A stretch of DNA of 40,563 nt, taken from assembly GCA_018693105.1 (NCBI GenBank), contig JABHLN010000018.1, positions 1 through 40,563 on the forward strand, given 5' to 3'. Positions 10,101 to 21,595 of the stretch are shown in pieces (the stretch's first letter is position 1; each line of letters begins with the position of its first letter). The stretch is from Desulfobacterales bacterium (lineage in GTDB: Bacteria; Desulfobacterota; Desulfobacteria; Desulfobacterales; SURF-7). A model generated the notes under the pieces. The model worked only from the letters and a program-made list of their open reading frames with translations, was not told the origin of the DNA and ran no database searches. Made by a program: the position numbers and the translations under genes.

Positions 10101-11327
10101 CTACACTTTTTTTGATTTACGCAGGATGCTTCTTCTTTGGAAACCTAGTATTTTCATTATAATCCAACCGATTATCTTCATGGCCCTACCTTCAAACTCT
10201 TTTACTACATCTTCAAGGAGTTCCTGGACAGGTAATTGCTGAGGACAGGCATCTTCACATTGACCGCAATTTTCACACTGAGATGCAAAGCCGGTGTTTC
10301 CAGAACCGGAGGAATCTCCCAAACGGGAAAGATAAAATATTTTTGATGAATTATCGTTAAAAAGATATTTGTTGTTATAGAACTCAAAACAGGATGGTAT
10401 GTCAACTCCTGCAGGACATGGCATACAATAGCGACAGCCGGTACACCCCACTTTTGTCAGCTCCATATATTTATCTGCTACTCTTTCAACTATCTTCAAT
10501 TCTTTATCAGTAAGCGATTCCGGTGTAGCTTCATCGGCAATACGAATATTTTCTTCAATATGTTCTTCCACATTCATGCCTGAAAGAACAACTGTAACCT
10601 CGGGATGGTCCCATACCCAACGAAGAGCCCATTCGGCCGGAGATCGCTTGACTTCAGCCTCATCCCATATTGCCTGAACCGAAGGCGGCACTCTGCCTGC
10701 TATATTCCCGCCCCTTAAAGGTTCCATAATAACTACACCTAATCCTTTTGCTGCAGCATATTCAAGCCCTTCAGTACCCGCCTGAATATTCTCGTCAAGA
10801 TAGTTATACTGGATCTGGCACATATCCCAGTCATAATCATCAACAATTTCCTTAAATGCCTCTTTATCTCCATGAAACGAAAAACCTGTATGACTTATTC
10901 TTCCATCCGCTTTTGCCTTATCAAGAAAATCACATACGTCCATTTCTTTCAGCTGTTTCCACAAGTTACCGCTAAGGCCATGGCAAAGGTAGTAATCGAT
11001 CTGTTTTGTATTAAGATTATTGAGCTGAACATTTATGACCTTGTCCATATCATCCCGTGATTTAACATATAATGACGTTAATTTTGTGGCCAGCTTGACC
11101 TTTTCCCGATATCCGTCAGTCAATGCCCTACCGAGAAAAGTCTCGCTGCCCCCCAGATGATAAGGTATGGCAGTATCAAGATAGTTAACACCATTATCTA
11201 TAGCATGGCGAACTTGCTCAGTAGCTCTCTCTTCATCAATTTTTCTTTTTTTTTGGGGTAGACGCATACATCCAAAGCCAAGTATTGAAAGTTCATCTCC
11301 TGTTTTTTCCATCTTGCGATATAACAT
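10101..11327 (-). CDS. Aldo/keto reductase with C-terminal 4Fe-4S domain
   Basis: A 408-residue protein. The N-terminal 280 residues are the aldo/keto reductase TIM barrel. 'LGFGCMRLPQ' is the first strand, and the catalytic tetrad is visible as Asp51, Tyr56 ('DTAIPYH'), Lys82 and His116 ('YYLCHGL'). The C-terminal part carries 'CTGCRYCMPCPAGVDIP' and 'CENCGQCEDACPQQLP', two Cys-rich motifs expected to bind [4Fe-4S] clusters. This ferredoxin-tailed AKR type is common in anaerobes; physiological substrates are mostly unknown. The ATG has GGAGAAAG upstream. It is a clear paralogue of the gene at 18383 with extra C-terminal 'RRSILRKSKKV' basic residues. Confidence 0.92.
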   Translation of the reverse strand: MLYRKMEKTGDELSILGFGCMRLPQKKRKIDEERATEQVRHAIDNGVNYLDTAIPYHLGGSETFLGRALTDGYREKVKLATKLTSLYVKSRDDMDKVINVQLNNLNTKQIDYYLCHGLSGNLWKQLKEMDVCDFLDKAKADGRISHTGFSFHGDKEAFKEIVDDYDWDMCQIQYNYLDENIQAGTEGLEYAAAKGLGVVIMEPLRGGNIAGRVPPSVQAIWDEAEVKRSPAEWALRWVWDHPEVTVVLSGMNVEEHIEENIRIADEATPESLTDKELKIVERVADKYMELTKVGCTGCRYCMPCPAGVDIPSCFEFYNNKYLFNDNSSKIFYLSRLGDSSGSGNTGFASQCENCGQCEDACPQQLPVQELLEDVVKEFEGRAMKIIGWIIMKILGFQRRSILRKSKKV

Positions 11328-11685: not shown

Positions 11686-14600
11686 CTATCTGACCCTGAG
11701 AGCTGGATCCCCAAGAAGAGTGTACACATCAAGCTCAATTTGAGCCCCTCCTATTTCGGAGAGTTTTTCAAGCGATCGGAGTACAATATCTCCAAGTACC
11801 GGCTCTTTATCCACAAGCATCGCTTTCATAAATTCTTTTCCAAGAACCAGTGCATGTGAATTATTGGAAAGTCCGGTTGGTGCCCACACCGCGATTGCAC
11901 CGCCACTATCGTGCATAACAAGGCTCTCTCCAAGGTTGTCATACCCGGGCCAGGTGAACTTGTTCACAAGGCAGGTCAGAGCTGTCAACACAGGCAGCCT
12001 GTCTCCGTTGTTAAGAAGCGGCATATCAAATGATGTCAACAACCCATCATACCACCCATAAACCCCTATGAGGTAAGGTGCACCATGACCGATATAGTTT
12101 ATCAAAAGAGCACCATTGTTAAACCCGTTTAATGTAAGGTTCTTAGCCTGGTTGAAAGTGTAATCCGACATATATACCTTACTGATTGAGTACTCAGGTG
12201 ATATCATGGAGGCCAGAAGATCACTGTTTGCAGTGAAATCCCCTCCAGGCTCCGGATTATCGGCAATCATCATCACATTACCGGACCACGGGCCATTTTC
12301 ATAGTCAATTATTTTATTGATCATCATGCCCAGTTCATCAGGCGTTATTACCGGCAACCGCCCAACTGCCATTTCCGGGACTCCGTCACCTCCCATGACA
12401 TCCCCATACCGGTTGTCTGATGCAAAAAGGCCGTCCGGGGTTCCCACCATCATTGCCGGAATTAAATTATCATCAAAACCTTCTATATTTTTATAGTCAT
12501 ATGTACCGTTACCGGCCAGAAGTACATATTCTGGAGCGTTGTCCCAGTTAGAATACGCATACGCAAGAAATGACCTTATCGCATGCGGTGTGGCAACACC
12601 GTTGTTAAACTCATCATAAATATCTTCAAGGGAGACTACCATTGTATCAAGTCCCTGCCCGCTTCGATAATACGCAAGCTCCCATGCAATATCCGTAAGA
12701 AATGATGGAGATATAATCACATAATCTGCCCTGTTTGAAGAATCCGCCAGATTGGAAGGAACATCCGCAAACGCATTATCCACTGAAATTACTGCATCCC
12801 CGGTAACAGCCAGATAAACCGATTCAGAAGATGATGTGTCAAAACCAACCATGTAACCGTTTTCTCCGGTTTCAATGTATTTTACGTCAATAAACACAGG
12901 CCTTTCAGGGTTAGTAATATCAAAAACCATAATATCAGAATCTGAAAAACCACTCACTATAATAACGCTTTCATTTCCGGAAAATATCAGGGTGTCATCA
13001 TGGGCCGTATACAGGCTTTGATATTCCAGTTCAATAGAATCAACAGTTATATAATCGAATCCAATACCGGTATCAGTTACTCCGGATATTTCCACAGTAT
13101 TCTCACCTTCTTTCATTAGTGCCTGATCAAAAGGAATGACAATAGTCTCCATATCTGTTCCATCCCATCGGGCATCACCAACCACCTCACCATTCAAATA
13201 TACAAAAACATGATGTTCCATCTCTATCTCAGTTTCAAAAACAGCCCGGAGCATAATTGAAAGACTGGCCGTATTCAATACTTCCGAAACACCGTAAGTA
13301 TAAACCGTAAAAGGAGTTTTATAGATGTATGGATCATCGGGATCGGGGTAATCACTCCAGACCTCATCCCACATCCAGTTATCCACTTCAGGATCAGTTG
13401 AATAATCCAGCATTGAAAAGATATCCTTCTCTTCATGAACCTTTCTTGTGAAAGTCTGATAATCTGTGGCCGATACAGGGGCTTTGCCTTTTACGGCCTT
13501 CATTTTAAGACCTTTTCCCATATCAAGCCAGTAGATATTATCCGATGCATATATGCTTTCAATCGATTGGCCATAAAAATATATGCCGGAATTGTCCCGG
13601 ACATTATGCCAGGCTACATCATCTCCCTTGTTACTCATGGAAAACCGTTTTTTCTTTATCATTTTTCTGACGTTCTTTAATGATATATCGAATAACTCGG
13701 AAATCAATGAAGCATCCAGGTAATACAATCCGTCCTCTTGAACCGGTATTTTCACCCGATCTCCAACTCTTTTCAATTTTCTATTTTTTGAAGCCTTCCG
13801 GGCTTTGTGAGCAGCCTTTAGACGCCCCTTTCCTATTTTAGCCTTGGGATTTGATTTCTTTTTGAATCTTTTATCACCCAGCAACGGCTGGTTTTCTTCG
13901 ATACCGGACTCAGCTACAGTAACTGAAAACGGGCCGTAAGAACGTTTTTTCCCACCAAATTCCAGCTCCACAAGTTTATACTTATAAGTACTACCCACAA
14001 GTGCCGTATTATCAATAAATGTGTACACACCTCCCTGGGGGGAATGAATAAGTCCCGGAAGCAGTTTCTCATTCAAACGCTGAAATTTCCTCTTAGAGCC
14101 TGATTTACGATGTTTATTTTTTTCCTTAAAATCCGATTTACGATAAAGGTGAAAACCTAATGTTCCGATTTCTGAAGCTGTTTTCCACTCAACAACCACA
14201 TCGTTATCCGAGGCATATGCTTTAAAGGAAGATATAACCACAGCAGTAACAACCGCTTCTATGCTAAGGGATTTTGTTCCGTAAACCCAATCTTCTGGTT
14301 CGTCACTATCCAGTCCGTCAGTTACCCTTCGAATAACCTCACCCGGTTCTATAATTCCAATGTTGCCGTTCTCATCTTCGTCATCAACATTTCTGAAAGC
14401 ATTATCCAGCCATATCTCCCCGGTAACAGCATCTTGATCATCACTCTTAAAATCAATACTGTTGTTTATCAGTGTGCTCCATGCCACAAAATCAACTATT
14501 GTTTCTGTTTCGTCATACAGAGATATCTGGTCAGCAGGATCGGCGTCTCCGGGATCACCTAGAAGATCTGGGTAAGCTTCCGGACATGGTGGGTCTTCTA

Positions 14601-17403
14601 CATCCGGCGGCAACGGAGGGGTGCCGGTAATGAATGCATATAAAACATACTCCCCTGAAATAGAGTCATATTTCTCCTCGTAAAATTCCATAACAATTTC
14701 AGACATAATTACTATATAAATCTTTTCCCCCGGACCGAGAAGAATATCCAAACTGTCGAATTGAGGGATAGTATAACTAAAATCGTCCCCGTCTCCTACA
14801 GTATAACCGGTAACATTTACGCTTTCTCCTGATGCATTATATAGCTGGACATATTCAGGATCCCAATAACATGAATCCGGATCCGGATCATAATCGACAA
14901 CAACCTGATCAGGATGAAACATGACCTCATTGATTACAATCGGGGGCGCATTAAACAAAGCTGTATCAGTCTTGTTATCATTCGAAGGATCGATGTCTCC
15001 GTCCGTACAATCTTCATAGGAAACCGTCAGGCCATCCCTGTGGGAAGCCTCCAAAAGGTTGTTATCTACAGTATAAACACCGCTGAATGCTGCCGCCATC
15101 AACGGATTTGAATTAAAAGAGATATCAGTCCGGTCAGCGCTCAAGTTATTGTCAAGTGTCAGTTGAGTGTCGGAATCCACACTTACCACGGAATAGATCC
15201 CCACATCAGGTCCCGTGGCAATAACAAACTTGTCACCGGGTGATACTTCAGAAAGAAAAGCGGATGAAGCTGATGTGACTATTGCAGAACCGTTCGTTGT
15301 GATCAGATCGTTTTTTCGATTCATATATATACCGGAACCTGTAAAGATTTCCGTCATAAGAATAGTTTCAGAATCGCCTGTATCACTTGTTATAGTAACT
15401 GGCATTGTACCGCCGCAGGTGTATGAATTATCTTCAACCTTTATAAAAACCGGCTGTCCCGCTTTATATATATCTATATCAAGAGTGCCTGCACCGTTAG
15501 TAAAATAAACCCTCCCTGCATCATTTTTTGTAAACAAAAGAGCAGTGTCGGTATAATCAGTACCGTTATATGTAAAAGTTACGGTTACAATTCCCTGATC
15601 CAGATCTTCCCAAAGACCATCTTCCGGGTCGGCTGTTCCGTCATGGATCTTTGCATCAAGGCCGCCGGTTAAAAAGAATATACCGGTATCAGGCCCGGTT
15701 TCAGTTAGTGTAACGGTCTGGGCATCGGAACCTGTAAGTACAACCTGAATGGTATTTACAGTGTTTGGGTCAGTGTTAGAATCATAGTGATATACGGTAA
15801 CATAAATCTTGTCACTATCTACAGGGTCAGTAAATATACAATACTCTCCAGTATGGCTTCTGTCAGCTCTTGTAAACTGGATAAAAGGCACCCCGGACCC
15901 TAAAATAACAGCATCATCCGTGTAAGTGTCTGATGCGGCATTTGTATATGAATAAATGATTGTCTGACCTGAATACCCTTCAAGATTATCGTCATCATCA
16001 TTTCCCATGGTTTCGGTTACTATAAGTTGATCTCCAGGATATGTAGTAAACGTTATAATATCCCCGTCGGAAGGTGAATCTTCATATAGTGTGAAATTAA
16101 TTCCATCTGCTGTAGATATATATTCTATTCCGGCTGTTACATCCGGATGATTTCCTCCTGAAATACTACCAAAAACATCCCATGTACCGGTTGCGCTGTC
16201 ATAAGTAAGGGTCCAGTCCTCCCCCTCAGTGATAATCGAAGTACCAACATATGAGATCCAGCCGTTTTGTAAGTCAGACGAAACAGGCTTACTGGAACCT
16301 CCAAAGTTTGTAAAAACCCCGGAAGCGGGTCCTGATTCGGTAAGGGTAACAATCTCGTCATCGCCTGTGGCAGGATTGGTTACAGTAACTATTACAGTTT
16401 CAACAACATTGGAATCTGTGTTGGCAAAGACATCCTTTAGGTAAAGATATATATCGTCTCCGGCTGAATAAAAATCAACCTGATCGTGATTAATATCAAT
16501 GAAATACATTTCCGGCTCACCGTTTGATTTTATAACATCACCAAAATTAATCGGGTCGTTTTCAGTTAGGAAATCAAGATCTGTCATGAAATCTTTTTGA
16601 AGTGGATTTGTATTTGATGCACTTGTTGAAAAGACAAACCCCACCGGTGAATTAGGCATCAGAACCTGATTTCCCGAAAGGTCATTAAATGCGGTCATAG
16701 GTACCTGTATATCTATAAACCAGTCACCGGTGCCGTCATTGACCTCTCTTACACGGGTATGTGAAAGACTACCTGTTGTTCCAATATTATCGGCTGTAAA
16801 TTCTTCAACTTTTGCAGCTACAGGGTCCACTATTTCCTGACTATTGCTGTTGTCGTAAAGAATCTGAAGCTGATCGTATTTGTTATTACCCTGTGCAAAG
16901 GAGCCGTTAAGGTCAATCCAAAACTCCTTATAACCGTCACCATCTACATCGAGAAGTACATTCCAGTGATAGCTGGTAAAATCGGTCTTATTGGCCTGTG
17001 TCCCGGAACGTGGATCTCCGCTTAAACGCATTGTAAATAAAACATAATCATCTTCAAGTGACAGAGGATCATTAATATCATAGGGTGTTCCACCGTCAAA
17101 ATAACCGTAGGAAGGTGTATCAAATGGTCCGGGATCGGAAGTACTCGAACCGGAAGCAAGGTCAATTGAAGAAGGAGATACAGCTGCACCGCCATTTGAG
17201 CTATCTGATGAACCTTCCTCATCAGAAACAGGAGCACCGTTAAAAGTATAGGGAATTGTAAACCCTGAGGGGGGTTCAAAATTCGACCAGTCGGTTGCCG
17301 TGTCAGTAAATGATGCTTCTGCTTTAAACGGAAACAGGATAGTAATAATCAAAAATGATAAGATTGTCGGTATCCATGTTTTTTTCAATATATTTGTAAT
17401 CAT
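11686..17403 (-). CDS. Very large secreted protein with C-terminal gingipain-like C25 peptidase domain
   Basis: 1905 residues from the ATG at 17403, chosen because AGGTG lies upstream and the product then begins with a Sec signal peptide ('MITNILKKTW', a hydrophobic core, 'FKAEASFTD'). Residues about 25-330 include 'LLDVDGDGYKEFWIDLNG'. Residues about 330-800 hold repeated beta modules marked by 'VTLTESGPASGVF', 'VTLTETGPDTGIF' and 'MTEIFTGSGIY'. A lamin-tail domain ('IVINEVMFHP') starts at about 820. An FN3-like module ('VEWKTASEIGTLGFHLYRKS') is near 1070, then a very basic linker near 1150-1230. The last 400 residues are peptidase C25: His1773 in 'NYIGHGA' and Cys1811 in 'LTCLVNKF', 38 residues apart. 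It ends right after 'LGDPALRVR', with no recognisable sorting domain. Probably an extracellular or surface protease. Confidence 0.9.
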   Translation of the reverse strand: MITNILKKTWIPTILSFLIITILFPFKAEASFTDTATDWSNFEPPSGFTIPYTFNGAPVSDEEGSSDSSNGGAAVSPSSIDLASGSSTSDPGPFDTPSYGYFDGGTPYDINDPLSLEDDYVLFTMRLSGDPRSGTQANKTDFTSYHWNVLLDVDGDGYKEFWIDLNGSFAQGNNKYDQLQILYDNSNSQEIVDPVAAKVEEFTADNIGTTGSLSHTRVREVNDGTGDWFIDIQVPMTAFNDLSGNQVLMPNSPVGFVFSTSASNTNPLQKDFMTDLDFLTENDPINFGDVIKSNGEPEMYFIDINHDQVDFYSAGDDIYLYLKDVFANTDSNVVETVIVTVTNPATGDDEIVTLTESGPASGVFTNFGGSSKPVSSDLQNGWISYVGTSIITEGEDWTLTYDSATGTWDVFGSISGGNHPDVTAGIEYISTADGINFTLYEDSPSDGDIITFTTYPGDQLIVTETMGNDDDDNLEGYSGQTIIYSYTNAASDTYTDDAVILGSGVPFIQFTRADRSHTGEYCIFTDPVDSDKIYVTVYHYDSNTDPNTVNTIQVVLTGSDAQTVTLTETGPDTGIFFLTGGLDAKIHDGTADPEDGLWEDLDQGIVTVTFTYNGTDYTDTALLFTKNDAGRVYFTNGAGTLDIDIYKAGQPVFIKVEDNSYTCGGTMPVTITSDTGDSETILMTEIFTGSGIYMNRKNDLITTNGSAIVTSASSAFLSEVSPGDKFVIATGPDVGIYSVVSVDSDTQLTLDNNLSADRTDISFNSNPLMAAAFSGVYTVDNNLLEASHRDGLTVSYEDCTDGDIDPSNDNKTDTALFNAPPIVINEVMFHPDQVVVDYDPDPDSCYWDPEYVQLYNASGESVNVTGYTVGDGDDFSYTIPQFDSLDILLGPGEKIYIVIMSEIVMEFYEEKYDSISGEYVLYAFITGTPPLPPDVEDPPCPEAYPDLLGDPGDADPADQISLYDETETIVDFVAWSTLINNSIDFKSDDQDAVTGEIWLDNAFRNVDDEDENGNIGIIEPGEVIRRVTDGLDSDEPEDWVYGTKSLSIEAVVTAVVISSFKAYASDNDVVVEWKTASEIGTLGFHLYRKSDFKEKNKHRKSGSKRKFQRLNEKLLPGLIHSPQGGVYTFIDNTALVGSTYKYKLVELEFGGKKRSYGPFSVTVAESGIEENQPLLGDKRFKKKSNPKAKIGKGRLKAAHKARKASKNRKLKRVGDRVKIPVQEDGLYYLDASLISELFDISLKNVRKMIKKKRFSMSNKGDDVAWHNVRDNSGIYFYGQSIESIYASDNIYWLDMGKGLKMKAVKGKAPVSATDYQTFTRKVHEEKDIFSMLDYSTDPEVDNWMWDEVWSDYPDPDDPYIYKTPFTVYTYGVSEVLNTASLSIMLRAVFETEIEMEHHVFVYLNGEVVGDARWDGTDMETIVIPFDQALMKEGENTVEISGVTDTGIGFDYITVDSIELEYQSLYTAHDDTLIFSGNESVIIVSGFSDSDIMVFDITNPERPVFIDVKYIETGENGYMVGFDTSSSESVYLAVTGDAVISVDNAFADVPSNLADSSNRADYVIISPSFLTDIAWELAYYRSGQGLDTMVVSLEDIYDEFNNGVATPHAIRSFLAYAYSNWDNAPEYVLLAGNGTYDYKNIEGFDDNLIPAMMVGTPDGLFASDNRYGDVMGGDGVPEMAVGRLPVITPDELGMMINKIIDYENGPWSGNVMMIADNPEPGGDFTANSDLLASMISPEYSISKVYMSDYTFNQAKNLTLNGFNNGALLINYIGHGAPYLIGVYGWYDGLLTSFDMPLLNNGDRLPVLTALTCLVNKFTWPGYDNLGESLVMHDSGGAIAVWAPTGLSNNSHALVLGKEFMKAMLVDKEPVLGDIVLRSLEKLSEIGGAQIELDVYTLLGDPALRVR

Positions 17404-18382
17404 AGTTTTCACCTGTACTATTAAAAACTTACTTAACAGTCTGTTATACATTATATTCAAAAACCCACCCGGTATCAATACGATATCAAAAAGATTCAAA
17501 TTATGAAGACCCGAACTATAAAGATCAGAACTATGTTTTGAAACCATATTAAATTTAGATTTAAGCTGTCCTTTAAACATTGTGTCCCTATGAGACATTT
17601 TCAAGGAGCAAATAATTTATTCAAAATTGTTAAAATCGCACTTCTGAATAAATAAAGCTTAAATATTGTCACCTTAATATTCTTTTTATTCACATAGTTA
17701 ACCATTCCATATTTGAAACTTTTCTTTAAACTTGAATAGAATTTTACATTTTTAAAAAGTTCTCTGTTATTTATCAAAAACCTAATAAAGCCTATAAGAT
17801 ATTAATGCATAAAACATGCCACTAAAAGAAGCATATACATTAATACCCAACAACTTAATCCTATCATTTTGTATTTTTTATAGATTCACTTCTTTTAATG
17901 CATTAATGGGGGTATAGTTAAGAGCATGTTAAAACTTTTATTCTACATCATTCTTGTCGCAACACCTTAAAGTTACATTAAATTAATAGATAACTACAAA
18001 TAGTTGCACCTGCGAATTACAATTATTGTAGTATGTGCCGGGGCTTATTTTATCAGAAGTCTTAAAACAAAAATGAATAAAGCATCTAAATATTTATGAA
18101 GAACCAGCATTAATTGAATATGTTTTTACATTCAAAACTTAGAGAAAAGTAAACAATTGTTCTAACAAGTAACCATCTCTATTATGTATTTTCCGGGCCC
18201 TAAAATTCGACCGTGAGATGCTGCAACCTCATCTCATGTACCGGTTAATATTTGACATAAAATCTGGTGACAGTTATATATTCTATCATAAAATTACAAG
18301 TTCTTATCATTTATCTTAAACGCATATCACATAATAAATTTAATGGTTATTTTCAAAGGCAACTTCGATAAAGGAGAATACG
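17404..18382. other. Long divergent intergenic region, no gene recognised
   Basis: 979 bp of AT-rich DNA between the divergent C25 peptidase and aldo/keto reductase genes. The open frame continues upstream of 17403 to 17604, but that part encodes no signal or domain and lies ahead of the signal peptide, so I treat it as leader. AAAGGAGA (18370-18377) is the ribosome binding site of the gene at 18383. Imperfect inverted pieces (ACATGC near 17815, GCATGT near 17924) occur but are too weak to call. Confidence 0.5.
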
Positions 18383-19633
18383 ATGTTATATAGAAAAATG
18401 AAAAAGACAGGAGACAAACTTTCCGTACTTGGTTTTGGCTGTATGCGTCTCCCTCAGAAAATAGATGATAAAGGTGCAGTAAAAATTGATGAGAAGCTTG
18501 CTACCAGACAGCTTAGATATGCAATAGATTGTGGTGTTAATTATGTCGACACTGCTATTCCCTACCATATGGGAGAAAGCGAACCTTTTCTTGGTCGAGC
18601 GCTATCTGATGGGTATAGAGAAAAAGTGAAGATAGCCACAAAACTTCCACCGTGGTTAGTCAAAACAAGAGAAGATATGGATAGATTTCTTGATGATCAG
18701 CTAGAAAGACTAAAAACTGATAGTATTGATTATTATCTCGTTCACGGACTCGACGGCAATATTTGGGAAAAAATGAAAAGCCTCGATGTATTCGGTTTCC
18801 TTGATAAGGCAAAAGAAGAAGGCCGCATTACGAATGCAGGATTTTCCTTCCACGGTGATAAAGATGCCTTTAAAAAAATCATAGATGACTATGATTGGGA
18901 TTTTTGCCAAATTCAGTACAATTATCTTGATGAAAACAATCAGGCTGGAAAAGAAGGGCTTGAATATGCATTCTCAAAAGACGTTGGAGTTATCATAATG
19001 GAACCGCTTCGTGGAGGAAATCTTGCAAGGAAAGTCCCGGCTCAGATTGAATCCATCTGGAACGAAGCAGAAATAAAAAGATCACCTGCTGAATGGGCTC
19101 TCAGATGGGTATGGAATCACCCTGAAGTCGCCTCGGTACTTTCGGGAATGAATGAAGACGAACATGTAGAGGAAAATATTAGAATAGCTAATGAGGCATA
19201 TCCCGAATCCCTGACAGAAAAAGAACACCAACTTGTTAAAAGGGTTGAAGAAACCTATAGAAAACTCATGAAAGCCGGTTGTACCGGATGCCAGTACTGC
19301 ATGCCCTGCCCGTCCGGTGTGGACATTCCAACCTGTCTTGAAGTATACGACAATCTGCATATGTTTGGTGATGAAATAACTGCGAAGTTAGTTTATTTCA
19401 CACGTGTTGCAGGTGGCCAGGACGGAGAGCCTGCAAACGCTTCTCTATGTGAAAACTGCGGCCAGTGTGAAGATGCCTGCCCACAGAAGCTTCCAATTCA
19501 GGAGCTTCTTGAAAAAGTTACTATTGAACTAGAAGAAAGCGGCTCAAGCCCGCAGGCCGGTTTAGGAGATGCCTATGAAATATTCAAAGATGCAGGATTT
19601 CTTGCAATTAAAGATGATAAAACAGAAGAATAA
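18383..19633 (+). CDS. Aldo/keto reductase with C-terminal 4Fe-4S domain (second copy)
   Basis: A 416-residue paralogue of the protein at 10101-11327, similar along its full length. Tetrad: Asp56, Tyr61 ('DTAIPYH'), Lys87, His121 ('YYLVHGL'). Cluster motifs are 'CTGCQYCMPCPSGVDIP' and 'CENCGQCEDACPQKLP'. Differences are a five-residue insertion near residue 28 and a different, acidic C-terminus ('GDAYEIFKDAGFLAIKDDK'). AAAGGAGA upstream supports the ATG at 18383. A strong terminator hairpin follows about 50 bp after the stop, so it looks monocistronic. Two diverged copies in one neighbourhood suggest an older duplication followed by specialisation. Confidence 0.92.
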   Translation: MLYRKMKKTGDKLSVLGFGCMRLPQKIDDKGAVKIDEKLATRQLRYAIDCGVNYVDTAIPYHMGESEPFLGRALSDGYREKVKIATKLPPWLVKTREDMDRFLDDQLERLKTDSIDYYLVHGLDGNIWEKMKSLDVFGFLDKAKEEGRITNAGFSFHGDKDAFKKIIDDYDWDFCQIQYNYLDENNQAGKEGLEYAFSKDVGVIIMEPLRGGNLARKVPAQIESIWNEAEIKRSPAEWALRWVWNHPEVASVLSGMNEDEHVEENIRIANEAYPESLTEKEHQLVKRVEETYRKLMKAGCTGCQYCMPCPSGVDIPTCLEVYDNLHMFGDEITAKLVYFTRVAGGQDGEPANASLCENCGQCEDACPQKLPIQELLEKVTIELEESGSSPQAGLGDAYEIFKDAGFLAIKDDKTEE

Positions 19634-20663: not shown

Positions 20664-21416
20664 TCACATTAACCCAAGCTTCTGTCCAATTGATAGGCCG
20701 AACTTTTCCAAAAACCCCAGCTTCCAGTATGATCCTGCATTTTCGATTTTGTCCAGTGATGCGATCATTTCTTTTGAATATTCATCCATACACGAGAAAA
20801 AGTCCGGATCCCTTCTATTTCTAAAATATGAACTGCAAAAGAACTCCATCAAAGAATTCAAAGAAATTATACCTCCCTTTCTTTTCTCCTGGAAACCTTC
20901 CCAATTACGAAGATGTTCTTCCGACCGGAAGAAATTCATCGTACTTCATGAGTAAGCCCATTTCATCGCCCATCTTCCAATTGGAACAGAGACATAACCT
21001 ATAAGACCTTCGGGTTCTTCTCCGATAATCTTTCCGTCCTTAACTTCAACCCGAATAGACTCACCACAGTCAAGACATACCGAATCGATTCTTATTGTCT
21101 TTCCAGGAAAAAGCCAGCAGACCGCCAGCGATTCAAACGCTCACTGGCCGAACCACTTCTGCATACCGTCAATTGTCAAGCGGTATTGAGTCGGGAGATT
21201 GTTAAAAGGCGCAAATGATACGATAGTGTCTGTTTTTGGATATAGCCATCCAGGGAAACCAAATGTTGAGAAGAGTTCATGAAGAGCTCTTCTGCCTTCT
21301 GAAGGAGGCACTCCAAGTTCGTTAGCGATTTCCGTATAGTGTGGAGCCTGTCCGGTGGAGATCAACCGCTCTATTATTATATTAAACGTCTGGTCCAACT
21401 GGCTTGTTTCCGGCAT
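20664..21416 (-). CDS. MerB-like (organomercurial lyase family) selenoprotein with two selenocysteines
   Basis: A single 250-codon frame from the ATG at 21416 (GGGGAGG eight bases upstream) to TGA at 20664-20666, interrupted only by two in-frame UGAs at 21141-21143 (residue 92) and 20946-20948 (residue 157). Residues 1-90 include a winged-helix-like part ('YTEIANELGVPPSEGRRALH') and 'FAPFNNLPTQYRLTIDGMQ', as in the MerB family. Then 'KWFGQ-U-AFES' aligns with classical MerB 'YAWC96ALD', 'IDSVCLDCGE' with the Cys117 region, and 'WAYS-U-STMNFFRSEEH' with 'SFC159CHVHFF'. So both catalytic Cys positions are UGA, Glu95 sits at Asp99 and Cys114 at Cys117. The spacing is 65 residues against 63. Each UGA has a SECIS-like hairpin. 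MerB cleaves C-Hg bonds; whether this protein does so is inference. The 179-bp gap upstream separates it from the EFR1 gene. A double-nonsense pseudogene is the main alternative, and I consider it unlikely. Confidence 0.88.
20912..20948 (-). promoter_or_regulatory. Selenocysteine UGA codon 157 and its SECIS hairpin
   Basis: UGA at 20948-20946 is followed after 19 nt by the tetraloop GGUC (20926-20923), closed by a perfect seven-pair stem UUCUUCC (20933-20927) / GGAAGAA (20922-20916). Beyond a 3-nt AAU bulge the lower stem GAUG (20940-20937) / CAUC (20915-20912) adds four more pairs. The GGU in the apical loop is the SelB-recognition feature of bacterial SECIS elements. Confidence 0.87.
21113..21143 (-). 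promoter_or_regulatory. Selenocysteine UGA codon 92 and its SECIS hairpin
   Basis: UGA at 21143-21141 is followed after 17 nt by the loop GGUCU (21123-21119), closed by GCUGGC (21129-21124) and GCUGGC (21118-21113): six pairs, two of them G-U. The E. coli fdhF SECIS, as I recall it, also has a GGUCU loop followed by GC, 18 nt after its UGA. Part of an outer A-U helix can form below a small internal loop. Confidence 0.85.
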
Positions 21417-21455
21417 GTTTTTATCCTCCCCTGATATAAAAAATTGATATAAAAA

Positions 21456-21467
21456 TTTGATATCAAA
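21456..21467. promoter_or_regulatory. Palindromic candidate operator TTTGATATCAAA
   Basis: A perfect 12-bp palindrome 40 bp upstream of the MerB-like start codon. Related pieces (TTGATAT at 21444, GGTATCAAATATC near 21541) lie in the same gap, suggesting a regulator-binding region. No regulator can be named. Confidence 0.35.
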
Positions 21468-21595
21468 AAGAAAAAACAACCCAAGATACTTGAAGAAAGA
21501 ATTATTAGAAGTGATTAATTATAAATGTTTTTTATATTTTGGTATCAAATATCTTTGGAGATAACAATATTAATTTTATAGCACCAGGTCTTTAG

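Follow-up and report, generated by a model that had tools for sequence, protein, structure and literature searches.

The window, by which we mean the whole 40,563-nucleotide stretch of a Desulfobacterales draft genome that was analysed, carries a relative of the organomercurial lyase MerB in which both active-site cysteines are apparently encoded as selenocysteine (Sec). That this gene is real and conserved is strongly supported by comparison of its sequence with its relatives. It is on the minus strand, where it runs from an ATG at 21416 down to 20664; read in that frame it has 250 codons and a terminal TGA. The only internal stops are two TGAs, at codons 92 and 157. An earlier note on this DNA had described one frame broken by two UGAs alone, never by UAA or UAG, and this was confirmed for the minus strand, which the note had left unstated; the plus-strand frame at 20664-21416 has 12 stops. 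The normal ribosome-binding site that it reported is also present, and its spacing of 65 residues between the UGAs, against 63 in MerB, was reproduced. The features are as follows.

20664..21416, minus strand: two-UGA MerB-superfamily gene, 250 codons plus TGA stop (reading frame and Pfam; kept in 32/32 aligned loci)
21425..21432, minus strand: ribosome-binding site AGGGGAGG, ending 8 bases before the ATG
21141..21143, minus strand: predicted first Sec codon, UGA, codon 92, at MerB Cys96 (UGA in 32/32 aligned and 79/80 masked-scan relatives; MerB alignment)
20946..20948, minus strand: predicted second Sec codon, UGA, codon 157, at MerB Cys159 (UGA in 32/32 aligned and 80/80 masked-scan relatives; MerB alignment)
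21066..21077, minus strand: C114-x-x-C117 motif, with C114 at MerB Cys117 and C117 extra (invariant in the 31-row alignment A1)
21113..21129, minus strand: SECIS-like hairpin 1, 6 bp, GGUC apex, +14 to +30 nt from the first base of UGA 1 (pairs, frozen codons)
20916..20933, minus strand: SECIS-like hairpin 2, 7 bp, GGUC loop, +15 to +32 nt from the first base of UGA 2 (pairs, frozen codons, own fold)

Standard calling of open reading frames (ORFs; ≥90 aa) splits the two-UGA gene into two pieces, at 21141-21479 and 20664-20939. A gene for an EFR1 family ferredoxin lies 180 bp upstream on the same strand. Elsewhere in the window are two similar aldo/keto reductases with C-terminal 4Fe-4S domains (10101-11327, minus strand, and 18383-19633, plus strand) and a 1,972-aa ORF (11686-17604, minus strand). 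Rfam at its gathering scores gave no match anywhere in the window.

With TGA read as Cys, the Pfam MerB family (PF03243) spans both UGAs with an E value of 2.3e-20 (73.3 bits versus a gathering score of 27). The scores with the NCBIfam MerB models NF009710 and NF033555 were below their cut-offs (44.6 of 193 and 35.5 of 200 bits). In an alignment of the family profile with MerB, codon 92 corresponds to Cys96, Glu95 to Asp99, Cys114 to Cys117, and codon 157 to Cys159 (MerB residues were counted on the C160S chain 3f2g). The UGAs thus fall where the earlier note had placed them, the second match being ambiguous by one residue in wild-type MerB chains because of a HMMER gap at the Cys159/160 pair. 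The accessible part of PMC8261052 gives Cys96, Asp99, and Cys159 as strictly conserved and catalytic; at these positions the window's protein would have Sec, Glu, and Sec.

An AlphaFold model made from the 31-row alignment, with TGA as Cys, had a mean pLDDT of 91.9 and a pTM of 0.87. When the model was compared with the PDB by Foldseek, 11/11 matches at an E value of 0.001 or better were MerB or MerB2 (query TM-scores of 0.46 to 0.60), and the PDB matches of the family profile were five distinct sequences, again all MerB or MerB2. MerB2 (PDB 5c17) was both the best sequence match (5.4e-18) and the structure with the highest query TM-score (0.60). Both the gathering score and the Foldseek result place the protein in PF03243, and, judging from the model, it very probably has the MerB-superfamily fold. 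It resembles MerB (PF03243; PDB 3f0o and 3f2f) in its predicted fold, in its metal-ligand positions and their near-equal spacing, and in having an equivalent of Cys117, but differs in having apparent Sec for both Cys, Glu for Asp99, and no mer operon. The C114/C117 motif is invariant in all 31 rows of alignment A1; a divergent copy, L121, is without it.

Both UGAs are conserved. UGA is found in both columns in 32/32 aligned relatives, which are 25 members of a first clade (the window's gene and others 43 to 69% identical to it) and seven loci of a second clade from six genomes. Six of the second-clade loci, which are in A1, share 21 to 23% identity with the window's protein; L072, the seventh, is truncated at a contig end. 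The number of residues between the UGAs is 63 in six of these seven genes, as in MerB, and 62 in L072. A search across the order gave matches in 43/389 genomes at an E value of 0.001. Left out of the order-wide alignment were fragments (in G113, G054, G314, G141, G299, and G200, and smaller ones), Cys-containing paralogues (in G244, G111, G105, G221, and G276), the SaoL of G152, the Cys MerB-like match of G208, and other weak matches. Across the phylum, 45/395 genomes had matches, and in 23 of them, including the window's, the gene was full or nearly full length with two TGAs. Some copies were fragmentary or frame-split (G747, G760, G534, and G407), which may be due to assembly errors or decay.

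In a scan of 84,980 species genomes, for which X replaced the residue at both Sec positions of the query, we kept the best 80 of 297 relatives and read their codons by script (73) or by eye (7). Among these best 80, 79 had UGA at both sites and one had TGC/UGA. The exception, L208, is a first-clade gene from a Nitrospinae MAG that retains most bases of the first hairpin. Most of the best 80 records are deltaproteobacterial by name; single records are labelled Nitrospirae, Nitrospinae, Spirochaetes, Poribacteria, Abyssobacteria, Lambdaproteobacteria, and Acidimicrobiia. A plasmid collection yielded three records with 26 to 29% identity, annotated as merB or alkylmercury lyase family, and a six-pattern scan of genome contigs, one pattern of which required a Cys codon at the first site, yielded no relative. 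Because the UGAs are conserved in 32/32 aligned relatives and in 79 of the best 80 relatives of the masked scan, a chance origin of both is excluded. The gene thus has what is looked for in a bacterial selenoprotein, a conserved in-frame UGA at the position of a catalytic Cys. The earlier note had proposed a search for homologues with Cys or UGA at both positions, and had named UAA, UAG, or unrelated residues there as evidence against its reading; among the full-length relatives examined, the two codons were never UAA or UAG and never stood for anything but Sec or Cys. Disabled close copies, which it would likewise have counted against itself, were not seen among the nearest relatives, although a few other copies are fragmentary or frame-broken.

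The protein sequence is under purifying selection throughout. In the 25 first-clade genes pN was lower than pS in 300/300 pairs in each of three segments; the median pN/pS values were 0.245/0.765 before UGA 1, 0.262/0.708 between the UGAs, and 0.371/0.709 after UGA 2. In the same 25 genes, synonymous codons are frozen just after each UGA. From +3 to +7 after UGA 1 these are GAA (23/24), TCG (22/22), CTG (23/25), GCG (20/25), and GTC (22/25), and from +6 to +9 after UGA 2 they are TTC, CGG, and TCG (each 25/25) and GAA (24/25). The mean probability that the same codon is used at conserved residues was 0.60 versus 0.30 expected at +5 to +12 after UGA 1 and 0.84 versus 0.41 expected at +5 to +11 after UGA 2; elsewhere in the gene it was 0.40 to 0.43 versus 0.36 to 0.38 expected. 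When 67 seven-codon windows were scored, the 14 highest started between −1 and +7 codons from a UGA.

A bacterial SECIS is a hairpin just after the UGA with G residues at its apex. Such a hairpin follows each UGA here, the first being weaker in single folds. Since some genomes occur in two collections, we counted the hairpins by distinct sequence (73 from 97 loci for UGA 1 and 70 from 98 loci for UGA 2, with the 7 loci read by eye left out). Of the 73 distinct sequences for UGA 1, 72 or all 73 form each pair of hairpin 1, and GGUC stood at +20 in 59/73, the other 14 having no exact GGUC there. Of the 70 for UGA 2, between 64 and 70 form the individual pairs of hairpin 2, and GGUC stood at +22 in all 70. 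The outer pair of hairpin 2, which joins the third base of a Glu codon to the first base of a Phe or Leu codon, covaries: there were 36 C-G, 24 U-A, 4 U-G, 4 C-A, and 2 other combinations (P = 1.9e-10 by Fisher's test on the first four classes, uncorrected for kinship). Covariation is limited because the hairpins overlap conserved protein and barely vary. In folds of 48 nt of the window's own sequence hairpin 2 forms and hairpin 1 is not the minimum-energy structure; for most second-clade genes, too, single folds show hairpin 1 weakly or not at all. Of the eight lowest mean folding energies among 224 windows of 27 nt along the aligned gene, seven belonged to windows starting 2 to 5 codons after a UGA, and the lowest of all to a window starting two codons before UGA 1. 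There, at 21113-21149 (minus strand), bases upstream of UGA 1 can pair with the strand of hairpin 1, which would place the UGA in a loop.

Of the Sec-decoding genes that the earlier note had named, those searched for are present in the window's genome: selA (611 bits; cut-off, 268), selB (380 bits; cut-off, 242), and selC, the tRNA-Sec (75 bits; gathering score, 47), were all above their cut-offs, so the lack of selB and selC that would have told against Sec was not observed. Of 53 genomes with two-UGA genes, 38 had a tRNA-Sec at 69 bits or more. Among the other 15, selB was above its cut-off in 12, and in G091, G217, and G124 (89, 73, and 84% complete) neither tRNA-Sec at 69 bits nor selB at its cut-off was detected; a repeat search of the 15 for tRNA-Sec gave one more, in G153, at 55.5 bits. 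However, 15/19 genomes without a two-UGA gene also had a tRNA-Sec at 69 bits or more. Thus, Sec decoding is widespread among these bacteria and does not set carriers of the gene apart.

The genome is a draft of 171 contigs, and two in-frame stops could mark a pseudogene or an assembly error; some copies elsewhere are indeed frame-broken. However, the same two UGAs recur in dozens of genomes, with UAA or UAG never in their place in the loci read, and purifying selection continues after both. UGA conservation and pN below pS led us to reject this explanation, to which we give hardly any weight. Equally improbable is a genome-wide reassignment of UGA to another amino acid, such as tryptophan, which would also put UGA in frame. 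The gene's own stop is TGA, ORFs in the standard code fill the window, paralogues have Cys at the aligned position, one close relative has TGC, and tRNA-Sec and selB are present; we rejected reassignment on these grounds. The two-selenocysteine MerB homologue that the earlier note proposed is strongly supported by the conserved UGAs, the hairpins under selection, selA, selB, and tRNA-Sec, and the predicted MerB fold, and we consider it nearly certain from the sequence that the gene is translated into a protein with two Sec residues.

A MerB relative with one Sec has been described. SaoL (NF040728) is in the MerB superfamily and has Sec at the second metal-binding position. The part of PMC13188914 available to us lists it as an "alkylmercury lyase MerB-like protein" with motif CU and one Sec, attributing it to Haft and Gwadz 2023; in that part only some selenoprotein families have two Sec, the MerB-like entry having one. 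In contrast to this listing, both positions in the window's protein are apparently Sec, and its family is a supported clade separate from SaoL. The residue preceding Sec157 is Ser in the window's protein and Ala, Ser, or Thr among the 25 first-clade genes. We rejected SaoL as the identity of the window's gene, which scored 46 bits with the SaoL model against a cut-off of 140, falls in a separate clade, has no CU motif, and has two predicted Sec. Among other sources, the accessible part of PMC9312934 lists a MerB-like selenoprotein with no motif, and that of PMC2398784 names mercuric transport proteins, the words "merb" and "lyase" being absent from its main text. Neither "merb" nor "mercur" occurs in PMC8318568, and the terms sought were absent from PMC5029168 and PMC12013277. 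Our literature search, which was incomplete in coverage so that an earlier mention is possible, found no two-Sec MerB in print. The earlier note's statement that it knew of no described example holds for the second Sec and the separate family, but not for a MerB-like selenoprotein as such. Because the single-Sec SaoL was already described, the novelty lies in the second Sec and the separate family.

In a tree of 49 rows (L082, also chosen, was lost from it), the first clade has 25 rows, of which 24 are Sec/Sec and L208 is Cys/Sec (support, 100/99). The second clade has seven rows, all Sec/Sec (support, 100/98), and stands apart from the first. A third Sec/Sec protein (L135, 982-1734, minus strand) is very divergent, lies on a long branch elsewhere, and was found in one genome only. 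Cys MerB-like proteins, five of which in the order are 27 to 33% identical to the window's protein, form a separate clade; most have a longer C-terminus, and none has Sec except L124, at the second site. This L124 (Cys/Sec) belongs to a clade of nine, of which eight are Cys/Cys, and its sister L125 is Cys/Cys. The two (L124, 2992-3675; L125, 968-1867) are very close, with UGA in one and a Cys codon in the other at the second metal site. To fit the starred branches, the Sec/Sec state must have changed at least twice, with the root and the long branches unsure; consequently, double Sec in the MerB superfamily may have had more than one origin or have undergone repeated losses. No Sec/Cys combination occurred among the loci read. 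Of the Cys/Sec proteins, L074, L131, and L133 pass the SaoL cut-off (165, 148, and 175 bits) and L132 fails it (55 bits). One genome, G152, carries both a SaoL above the cut-off, with one Sec (L074, 6264-6905, minus strand), and a two-Sec gene (L037, 1525-2226, plus strand).

We found no constant neighbour gene among 876 naively called ORFs at 74 loci, and no mer operon or conserved mer neighbours around the two-UGA genes in the loci examined. The most widely shared neighbour clusters occurred in 12, 8, and 8 of the 74 loci and were not beside the window's gene. Aldo/keto reductases, forming one BLAST cluster, were near the two-UGA gene in 5/74 loci, in no fixed orientation. At eight loci (L154, L158, L174, L180, L184, L185, L186, and L191; five of these records bear the name Syntrophaceae) members of a more or less complete redox cassette come after the gene on its strand, namely C_GCAxxG_C_C, CCG, FAD-oxidase, and Fe-S/CCG genes (Pfam names from L186).

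A link to mercury through MerA was not supported: MerA was above its cut-off in only 3/72 genomes tested (G469, G434, and G306), and the match in the window's genome, at 426 bits, was below the cut-off of 454. Genomes with MerB yet without MerA are described in the accessible part of PMC8261052, so a missing MerA does not by itself exclude a lyase. The methylation gene product HgcA is encoded in the window's genome on contig C6 (2083-3060, minus strand; 432 bits versus a cut-off of 275), and in our hand-picked set it was above the cut-off in 37/53 two-UGA genomes versus 10/19 others. Order-wide, at an E value of 1e-60 or better, HgcA was found in 18/25 genomes with full-length first-clade genes versus 151/364 of the other genomes (P = 0.003); when the second clade and six genomes with fragments were added, the counts were 27/37 versus 142/352 (P = 0.0002), and for the second clade alone they were 4/6 versus 165/383 (P = 0.41). 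The odds ratio for the first clade was 3.6 to 4.2, with kinship and completeness uncontrolled. Within the family of the window's genome the association was absent (2/3 versus 7/9). For these two reasons, the association of the two-Sec family with HgcA is only suggestive.

What the protein does can be approached through MerB, which according to the accessible part of PMC4525700 carries out H+-assisted Hg-C cleavage, with Cys159, Cys96, and Asp99 acting in metal removal. In the window's protein, SelB and tRNA-Sec would decode each UGA with the aid of the SECIS hairpin just downstream, and in the predicted fold Sec92 and Sec157 would be the two metal ligands, with Glu95 taking the place of the proton donor. 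Most likely, the two selenolates would then grip an organometal such as methylmercury; Glu95 would protonate the carbon, the hydrocarbon would depart, and the metal ion would stay on both selenolates until removed by small thiols, by sulfide, or by C114/C117. Release from two selenolates may be too slow for turnover. Another point against a lyase is that 24 of 25 first-clade genes have Glu where MerB has Asp99; the remaining one, L041, and the second clade have Asp. MerB2 also departs from Asp99, with Ser there, but its ligands are Cys, unlike those predicted for the window's protein; same-phylum Cys/Cys MerB-like proteins (e.g., L068 and L125) have Glu at the acid position, as does the window's protein. 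Overall, the function would most likely be Sec-based cleavage or binding of a soft-metal-carbon compound. We put lyase activity on an organometal or soft metal at roughly an even chance, and the complete reading, a two-Sec member of the MerB superfamily decoded through SECIS and SelB that cleaves organometals as MerB does, at somewhat better than that.

Two other functions on the same scaffold deserve consideration. The protein might be a redox selenoenzyme that has no organometal substrate but forms a Se-Se bond and exchanges electrons with the C114/C117 dithiol. Two predicted selenols at the ligand positions together with a CxxC in 31/31 rows would suit such an enzyme, as would the C_GCAxxG_C_C, CCG, FAD-oxidase, and Fe-S genes after the gene in a minority of loci and the lack of a mer operon. 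However, the neighbour clusters occur in 12, 8, and 8 of 74 loci, none of them beside the window's gene, and every MerB-like protein read has kept Glu or Asp as the acid residue; we regard this redox function as unlikely. A sink or sensor that holds Hg(II), Cu(I), or a similar soft metal tightly without turnover seems, if anything, more doubtful. Selenolates bind soft metals more tightly than thiolates do, and the N-terminal helices of the model weakly resemble DNA-binding domains (LexA-type matches with E values of 0.15 and worse). Against this, the N-terminal region is also part of MerB, and a sink would have no need of the acid residue that is conserved beside the first Sec. Sec-based organometal cleavage is the reading that we prefer.

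In this family both metal ligands of one active site are apparently Sec. Mercury and selenium chemistry are linked. Ordinary gene prediction likely cuts short the genes of a two-Sec MerB-like family present in dozens of bacterial genomes, and because ORF calling splits the gene in two, surveys of MerB that rely on Cys or on intact ORFs would probably miss it. A further possibility, which we offer tentatively and think less likely to be right than wrong, is that the family is a widespread and overlooked organometal lyase of anaerobes in which a selenolate pair replaces the thiol pair and MerA is not needed. Sulfate-reducing and syntrophic bacteria, many with hgcA, would use it to cleave methylmercury or another organometal, and the double-Sec sites would possibly have two or more origins. 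The combinations Cys/Cys, Cys/Sec, and Sec/Sec all occur among the relatives, a natural series for testing what advantage two selenolates have over two thiols. If the compound cleaved is methylmercury, there may be an unrecognised route of demethylation in bacteria that often carry the gene for methylation.
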